From: a virus
Strand: one strand, 5' to 3'
Virus record (IMG/VR): IMGVR_UViG_3300025108_000059
Location: 1-56,749 of that record
DNA length: 56,749 nt
Part shown: positions 17,223 through 19,275 of the stretch, piece by piece
How the letters are laid out: each line of letters begins with the position of its first letter
Position numbering within the stretch: position 1 is the stretch's first letter
Translations under genes and position numbers: made by a program
The notes under the pieces: generated by a model
Databases searched by the model: none
The model's input: only the letters and a program-made list of their open reading frames with translations
Told to the model about the DNA's origin: nothing

Positions 17223-18338
17223 CTAGTTATTCTTTTCCATATTAGCGGCTGTAAAGCCTGCTCTATTTACTAGTTTGACATCTTTGCCAATTACATAACC
17301 TTCGCCGCCTTTTTGTCCGGCTGTTGTTGCTTCAATATCAGCTGGGTTGGCATCTAGTTGTGCAATAATATTATCTTTAATAGGTCCTATACTACGTATA
17401 AATGCAAATACGGCGTCTAATCCTTTTTGGTGCTGTTTTAAGTATTCTACAAGTCTACCTTGTTTTGCCTTACTTACTTTAGAACCATCTGCGGTTAACC
17501 AATTAACAAAATGTTTACTACCAATACTATTTACCGATCTAGTTTTTGCTAGGTTATTCATATACATGTATAAAATGTCTGGGAAGTTTTTCATTTTTAA
17601 ATCTGCTGGTGGAGCCAATACTGCATCAATATCATTTCCTGCTGATGTAATAAAGTTTTCAAGTTCACTTAACTTAGCACTTTCAATATCAGGAACGTCT
17701 GTAATTGATACTGGAGGCATTGCTAACAACGGCCCTTCTTGGAATCTAGTAGTATCTACTTTACTTTTATTTCCTTCTAAATCAATGTGTGCATGTAATA
17801 CAACACCAACACTACTGTTAGAAATTTTCTTGCCAATGTCACTTGCTGGATCAACTGTATACTTTGTTGTGTTTGGCATAAATGATAATCTATCTTCTTC
17901 CATTCCTGGCGTATCAAACCAAAGTAAATCACCATGAACATAACCTCTAAAATCTTCTGGAGTTGCTTGTTCAAATGCAGGCCAAACTTTTTTCATTTGT
18001 CCAATAAAGTCTCCATACCCTTGTGGGTTTTTAGCATAACCTGGACGGTTCTTTAACATGGCTTCCATTTCGTCTGGTGATTTTGATCTACCATTATAAC
18101 CTTTAGCACCAAATCCACTTTTATCTGTAAGAACAAATTCACCATTCTCATTGCGACCAAATATAACCGCTGGTGAGCCGTCCCATTTGATAGTTGTATC
18201 ACTTGGGTTACTTTCTAAACTGTGTAATGATGAGATTGCTTTTTGGGCGCCTACTTTGCCGTCCCATATAATTAAATCTTCTAAGTGTTGGATTCTGGCG
18301 CCACTGGCCTTTTCCATTATAATTTGATTAATTTTCAT
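17223..18338 (-). CDS. DNA/RNA-ligase-superfamily nucleotidyltransferase-like protein
   Basis: 371 residues. Motif I of covalent nucleotidyltransferases is visible as IKWDGSPAVIF (K51-x-D-G54, the lysine that would be adenylated). A motif III-like segment is RGYVHGDLLWF (131-141). Near the C-terminus GEGYVIG (E346) and KLVNR (355-359) match motifs IV and V. About 200 residues, partly helical, separate III and IV, more than in most ligases. It overlaps the upstream nucleotidyltransferase gene by 11 nt. Polynucleotide end-joining or repair is the best guess; the substrate is unknown. Confidence 0.7.
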   Translation of the reverse strand: MKINQIIMEKASGARIQHLEDLIIWDGKVGAQKAISSLHSLESNPSDTTIKWDGSPAVIFGRNENGEFVLTDKSGFGAKGYNGRSKSPDEMEAMLKNRPGYAKNPQGYGDFIGQMKKVWPAFEQATPEDFRGYVHGDLLWFDTPGMEEDRLSFMPNTTKYTVDPASDIGKKISNSSVGVVLHAHIDLEGNKSKVDTTRFQEGPLLAMPPVSITDVPDIESAKLSELENFITSAGNDIDAVLAPPADLKMKNFPDILYMYMNNLAKTRSVNSIGSKHFVNWLTADGSKVSKAKQGRLVEYLKQHQKGLDAVFAFIRSIGPIKDNIIAQLDANPADIEATTAGQKGGEGYVIGKDVKLVNRAGFTAANMEKNN

Positions 18339-19275
18339 TTGGTGTATCCTCTAATTCTGATGGGATACCCATTGATTGAATTTGTCTATTATCTTTAAAT
18401 GCATCTACTACTTTAGTATAAACATCGCTTGGATAGTTTTTCTTGATCGTTGCTAATAGTGTTTCAAAACTATATAAATCTTCTGGACCATCTAACCCAA
18501 GTGCTTTTGCAATTTCTTGTGTATTTGTAATTGGTCCTTTTAATACTGTATCAATTCTTGCTTTTGTATACCCTTCGCCATTTGCTTTGGGCTTAGGTTT
18601 ACGTGATATCCAATTTAATCCGTCTGACGGGCTCCATAACCAACGTTGTTGTTCTACAGAGCGTCCATCTTCAATCTTTTCATCTGATTCCTTTGACTGA
18701 TATATAGCAGCCATTGTTGCTAACATAATATTACGAAATGTGCCTTTATATTGACTTGATCTGCCACCTTCTTTGTCAAAGCCTTTTTCGTGTGGGCTAT
18801 GATAGTATGTTTTCATCCAATCTGGGTCGCCAGGCATGAAGTCAATTTGGACTTTACCTGTTCTATTTAATCCTGGCTTGGTATTTGTTGCATCGTATCC
18901 AACAATATCAACTGATGTCATAAACACACTTGATTTTTTAATATCTTGTATTAACGGCGATGCTTCTAATTTTGCTGCAAAGTCTTTTAATTGCTCTGGC
19001 TTTATATTAATAGCAACATCAATATCGCCACTAAATTCTTTTTTACCAACAGAACCTAAAACATTTGCTTTTAATGGAACACCCAATGACTTTTCTAATG
19101 CATCTATTGTGGCATCAATTTCAGTATGATGAATTGCACCGACACCATTCATTGCACCGCCTTCAGATAGCTTTTTTACATTAACTTTATATAAATTGTC
19201 AGGCTGAACCTTTCGGTGCTTTCTGTTATTGCGGTCTTTACGCTTTTTAGTGCCGACAATATCATTTATTTTCAT
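18328..19275 (-). CDS. pol-beta-type nucleotidyltransferase
   Basis: 315 residues. The signature is VLGSVGKKEFSGDIDVAIN (G74-S75 with D84-x-D86) and a third carboxylate in KVQIDFMPG (D145), the metal-binding set of the pol-beta superfamily. The long C-terminal region has Trp-rich and basic segments (QQRWLWSPSDGLNWISRK) that may bind substrate. It starts 4 nt inside the 82-aa gene upstream and is coupled to the ligase-like gene. This pairing suggests a two-enzyme end-processing or RNA-repair unit; that is inference. Confidence 0.75.
   Translation of the reverse strand: MKINDIVGTKKRKDRNNRKHRKVQPDNLYKVNVKKLSEGGAMNGVGAIHHTEIDATIDALEKSLGVPLKANVLGSVGKKEFSGDIDVAINIKPEQLKDFAAKLEASPLIQDIKKSSVFMTSVDIVGYDATNTKPGLNRTGKVQIDFMPGDPDWMKTYYHSPHEKGFDKEGGRSSQYKGTFRNIMLATMAAIYQSKESDEKIEDGRSVEQQRWLWSPSDGLNWISRKPKPKANGEGYTKARIDTVLKGPITNTQEIAKALGLDGPEDLYSFETLLATIKKNYPSDVYTKVVDAFKDNRQIQSMGIPSELEDTPNEN

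Follow-up and report, generated by a model that had tools for sequence, protein, structure and literature searches.

Two overlapping genes in the window, by which we mean the whole 56.7-kb stretch of DNA analysed here, encode a predicted polymerase-beta-type nucleotidyltransferase (NT) and a DUF6267 protein that we assign to the ligase superfamily (LIG). Their products may act together as a module that restores and seals ends, probably those of RNA, and that would follow the logic of the RlaP and RNA ligase pairs while belonging to neither of these families; the chances that this reading is correct appear to us to be about even. Observed in the sequences compared, and described below, were the motifs, the homologous relationships of LIG, and the coupling and fusion of the two genes.

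The window is a tailed-phage record that encodes a tail sheath, a terminase, UvsX and a ribonucleotide reductase. NT and LIG share 11 bases (18328-18338), and the features of the locus are listed in Table 1. NT is preceded by genes for a DNA primase (20961-21968), a DnaB-type helicase (19567-20964) and a small protein of PHROG 11854, and the genes after the pair are relatives of those for virion proteins. The small gene lies directly upstream of NT, and its start codon is uncertain, probably an internal ATG. A gene of the same type is found after the helicase and before the NT/LIG block in the window relatives, PA5oct, Atu_ph07, Phosso and L263-L273; the small protein of the window is possibly an adaptor or a virion protein. 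The protein of the third gene, conserved as the gene after the pair, is helical-looking and has a hydrophobic and Gly/Ala-rich C-terminus.

Table 1. Features of the NT/LIG locus, with positions in the window.
Feature	Position	Strand	Assignment	Basis
LIG	17223..18338	-	DUF6267 protein, 371 aa, predicted ligase-superfamily catalytic domain	Pfam match (E 4.9e-31), invariant motifs, profile chain to RNA ligases
NT	18328..19275	-	predicted polymerase-beta-type nucleotidyltransferase, 315 aa	invariant triad in 75 homologues, weak PF18765 match, adjacency to or fusion with LIG
K51 codon of LIG	18186..18188	-	predicted nucleotide-accepting lysine	translation; invariant across homologues
LIG motif IV (E346) to motif V (K355)	17274..17303	-		translation; invariant across homologues
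Small conserved gene	19272..19535	-	PHROG 11854 'virion structural protein'	PHROG match (E 1.4e-21)
ATAAATA (GATAAATAC context)	19549..19555	-	late-type promoter-like motif	strand bias, enrichment before starts, sequence
Third gene of conserved block	16474..17202	-		found after NT/LIG pair in window relatives, Phosso and L273

LIG belongs to DUF6267 (PF19782, PHROG 455, cyanophage T4-GC 71) as a full-length protein that scores 108.9 bits against a cut-off of 27 over residues 16-369. The family is listed as of 'unknown function' and is known mainly from cyanophages without NT, whereas the form in the window is partnered by NT. As the original prediction had it, the protein carries K51-W-D-G54 (motif I), E346-G-Y-V349 (motif IV) and K355-L-V-N-R359 (motif V), and the key residues turned out to be invariant: H18, E20, K51, D53, G54, E346, G347, V349, K355 and V357 in 84 homologues, and the eight from K51 to V357 also in an 11-row alignment at 19-27% identity, which takes in Kyanoviridae, a T4-like Vibrio phage (Straboviridae) and two jumbo-type ligase-like proteins. 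G136-D137 and F153-x-P155 are likewise conserved in DUF6267 and are candidate counterparts of motifs III and IIIa. The motif order KxDG, EGxV, K-x-V is that of the PF09414 RNA ligases (Rnl2 type); in contrast to these, DUF6267 carries an H-x-E-D box ahead of motif I, and its motif IV is preceded by a long insert of roughly 120 residues.

In profile comparisons, the full length of DUF6267 matched a family of ligase-like proteins from jumbo phages (P 96.5%, E 1e-9). This family in turn matched PF09414-type RNA ligases, represented by a profile built from 15 proteins of bacterial genomes (P 93.4%, E 2.5e-7). Unrelated families from the same loci, used as controls, gave E 0.13 or worse. The direct comparison of DUF6267 with the PF09414-type RNA ligases was non-significant (E 0.013-0.033), and the PF09414 model picked up the Atu_ph07 member of the jumbo family directly at E 9.8e-4, below the model's cut-off. 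Direct membership of LIG in PF09414 was rejected, as there was no Pfam match and the similarity is transitive, through the jumbo-phage family. Sequence searches of solved structures, by single sequence and by profile, gave no meaningful match. Based on the invariant motifs and on the profile chain from DUF6267 through the jumbo family to RNA ligases, we conclude at the level of sequence that LIG is a ligase-superfamily protein whose nearest neighbours are RNA ligases, the link to these being transitive by way of the jumbo-phage family; motifs and profiles agree with the superfamily originally proposed. The DUF6267 family, with matches in 469 phage records, is thereby placed in the ligase superfamily, with a defined predicted catalytic lysine to mutate.

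The motif residues of NT are G74-S75, D84-I-D86 and D145, so that the G-S ... D-I-D ... D pattern first noted in this gene was indeed present. G83, D84, D86, Q143 and D145, among them all three aspartates, are invariant in 75 homologues, and position 75 is S or T. The resulting signature, L-G-[ST]-x-G-K-...-[SG]-D-I-D-...-Q-x-D, is the pattern of polymerase-beta-type nucleotidyltransferases. Matches to PF18765 (Polbeta) were weak, with E 0.12 for NT of the window (P0002) and 0.018 for the best of the 75 proteins; the hhalign comparison with the same family (E 0.0035-0.009) was also weak, yet it was the best of all comparisons and in register. By its motif and these weak profile matches, NT is predicted to belong to the polymerase-beta superfamily. 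RlaP (PF10127) was considered as an identity for NT and rejected, since neither NT nor the window record gave a match and hhalign returned E 0.15.

The coupling of a polymerase-beta-type gene to a ligase-superfamily gene recurs elsewhere, often by adjacency or fusion and in a late structural-gene neighbourhood. Among 184 DUF6267 loci from viral contigs and phages, NT was adjacent at 113, fused at 47, absent at 17 and undeterminable at 7. These totals carry a bias, since NT itself served to retrieve some of the loci; the expected co-occurrence of the two genes in other phage genomes was found. At loci retrieved by DUF6267 alone, NT was present in 66 of 80, with 3 of the other 14 cut close to the gene, and at loci retrieved by the NT profile, DUF6267 was present in 78 of 80. 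In 11 of 12 jumbo-type loci the ligase-like gene overlaps NT in swapped order, and the block again follows primase, helicase and a small gene, the same set being found in PA5oct, Atu_ph07 and Phosso. A tree of 85 LIGs requires about 8 changes of the fused state, at least 6 of them being forced by well-supported branches, which indicates repeated fusion or fission. Owing to this recurrent fusion into one protein in ocean viruses, a functional partnership of NT and LIG is very likely.

Each gene also occurs without the other. LIG was found without NT at L045-L053 and L055. In two of these loci, L046 and L055, LIG itself bears an N-terminal tail of the kind typical of NT, pointing to a loss of NT by internal deletion. 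NT was found without DUF6267 at L031, L032-L035, L177 and L190, and a search for a replacement ligase at L031, L033, L034, L177 and L190 revealed none. One further protein (L074:3912-6887) consists of LIG followed by two NT-like domains. A host origin of DUF6267 was rejected: among the genomes of 84,980 bacterial and archaeal species there was a single match (L203), on a 29.9-kb Rickettsiales MAG contig that bears the same neighbouring phage genes and is probably a phage contig.

For each catalytic step and for the substrate we infer the following scheme. NT would extend a damaged 3' end by one or a few nucleotides or make it ready in some other way; LIG would load AMP onto K51, pass it to a 5'-phosphate and seal the break. 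The substrate would be RNA, e.g., a tRNA cut and trimmed by a host nuclease, and the enzymes would possibly be carried in the particle and be active at the start of the next infection. RNA is the likeliest substrate because the nearest detectable ligases are of the PF09414 type and because the only analogous pairing known to us is that of RlaP with an RNA ligase. As with NT and LIG, a polymerase-beta-type nucleotidyltransferase (RlaP) is there paired with a ligase-superfamily enzyme (Rnl1/Rnl2); in contrast, NT is not RlaP, LIG is unmatched by PF09414, and the NT and LIG genes overlap or are fused. In the RlaP and RNA ligase pairs of bacteria and jumbo phages, the predicted role is to replace nucleotides that a cleaved tRNA has lost, ahead of its sealing (PMC7824862). 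A true RlaP is present elsewhere in the same genome in Atu_ph07 and Vibrio phage 2.275. Tail-and-seal enzyme pairs are thus a known kind, and what is new here are these families, their overlap and fusion, and the swap of the partner; our literature search found no paper naming DUF6267 and none describing its pairing with NT.

LIG could instead be chiefly a DNA ligase or end-joiner that serves the replisome or the packaged genome, while NT fills or tails the ends of the DNA; the DUF6267 protein of the Kyanoviridae would then be the ligase that was never found in these phages. We consider this reading unlikely. The neighbourhood would fit such a role in several phage groups: the NT/LIG cassette lies beside primase and DnaB helicase in the window relatives and in jumbo phages, and DUF6267 lies beside gp41/UvsX in Kyanoviridae. 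In addition, all eight complete Kyanoviridae genomes tested (L305-L309, L311, L312, L036) possess DUF6267 and have neither PF01068 nor PF01653; S-WAM1 is among the Kyanoviridae tested that carry DUF6267. Because of the replication-gene neighbours, and because Kyanoviridae are without a recognised DNA ligase, a replication-linked role is possible, and the original view that the target would be packaged or damaged DNA, or cleaved tRNA, rather than replication forks could not be confirmed. According to a review, homologues of the T4 gene 30 ligase were not found in cyanomyoviruses, distant ones being left open, and the host ligase is favoured as the substitute (PMC2984593). Moreover, an ordinary DNA ligase coexists with DUF6267 or its jumbo relative in nine phages or contigs (XG4, DLP_6, Vibrio 2.275, EniLVp02, G004, PA5oct, Atu_ph07, Phosso, G306).

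The architecture of LIG also argues against a DNA ligase. DNA ligases have an OB domain with motif VI, whereas LIG ends 12 residues past R359 of motif V and has no room for such a domain, and therefore suits the RNA-ligase type better. A standard DNA ligase was accordingly rejected as an identity for LIG, which has no Pfam match to PF01068 or PF01653, and the match to a DNA-ligase profile (LigD type, E 0.011) was far weaker than that to RNA ligases. The T4 gene 30 DNA ligase resembles LIG in belonging to the ligase superfamily by motif and differs from it by its PF01068 match and C-terminal OB domain; Kyanoviridae have DUF6267 and no gene 30 homologue, while ligases of the gene 30 type coexist with DUF6267 in other phages. 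In a bolder form, DUF6267 would be the ligase that seemed to be missing from cyanomyoviruses and would make up, together with NT, one tail-and-seal enzyme different from any characterised ligase. Hundreds of marine phages would carry this enzyme and might inject it along with their DNA, a view that we hold to be doubtful. An old question, whether the T4-like cyanophages, which are without gene 30 DNA ligase, encode another ligase themselves, is now directly testable.

In Kyanoviridae and EniLVp02, an unannotated gene of 300-484 aa stands directly before DUF6267 and often overlaps it (L036:4625-5989, L306:3923-4981, L307:3881-4966, L308:2523-3977, L310:4030-4929). In Kyanoviridae, DLP_6 and EniLVp02, the immediate upstream neighbour of DUF6267 was compared with NT, and a diverged NT was ruled out. 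In S-PM2 (L305:4995-6774), DUF6267 is split over two annotated genes, the second half being read within a cytidyltransferase, which would reflect a sequencing error or a real frameshift.

The Kyanoviridae forms also bear on the possibility that the enzymes nucleotidylate a cofactor, an RNA cap or a protein, with NMP transfer as the common theme and polymerase-beta-type and HIGH-type partners being interchangeable. DUF6267 of the Kyanoviridae has no NT, and a HIGH-superfamily gene (NMNAT/cytidylyltransferase-like) usually follows directly downstream; PHROG 455 covers both domains, and three-domain fusions exist as NT-LIG-HIGH with a further C-terminal region (L098:2030-5359) and as HIGH-NT-LIG (L100:3657-6137). 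HIGH enzymes make cofactors, not strand ends, and would suit such a transfer. HIGH-type enzymes have also been found in cyanophage virions (PMC10665884, PMC9602691). However, it is RNA ligases that the LIG relatives match by profile, a long distance separates the HIGH gene from DUF6267 in S-CAM7 and S-CREM2, and an NMNAT could simply provide NAD+ for repair. Taken together, we regard this explanation as rather improbable and favour the end-restoring and sealing module for RNA.

The expectation of a late-type expression element upstream of the pair was confirmed in the form of the ATAAATA motif, which occurs 22 times on the coding strand of the window and twice on the opposite strand; 11 copies lie 60 bases or less upstream of a start, where 1.5 would be expected, and one precedes the small gene that itself precedes NT. 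The exact T4 octamer, TATAAATA, was not found upstream of the NT/LIG pair. Judged from these motifs, late expression of the pair is supported. The NT homologue of PA5oct carries the annotation 'structural protein, ESI-MS/MS', unlike the PA5oct ligase gene, which has no virion annotation; the smaller proteome of MIJ3, a phage near-identical to PA5oct, covers four major proteins only. NT and LIG may be present in the virion and be active from the outset of the next infection, as the late motif and the PA5oct annotation, and these two only, suggest for the phage of the window. That the pair is mainly a virion component with a structural or assembly role would agree with the structural-gene neighbourhood, the late motif and the mass-spectrometry annotation in PA5oct, but is very improbable given that catalytic residues are strictly kept at 19-27% identity and that two enzyme types are tightly coupled.

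Finally, a third family (PHROG 13937 and relatives) was noticed at several of the loci. In DLP_6 its gene precedes DUF6267, in PA5oct it separates the ligase-like gene from NT, and in L032-L035 it follows NT at a distance of about 3.5 kb (L039:5076-5993, L041:4644-5663, L033:10335-11420). By eye, a D...S-x-K pattern is visible in its members, possibly the active site of a nuclease.
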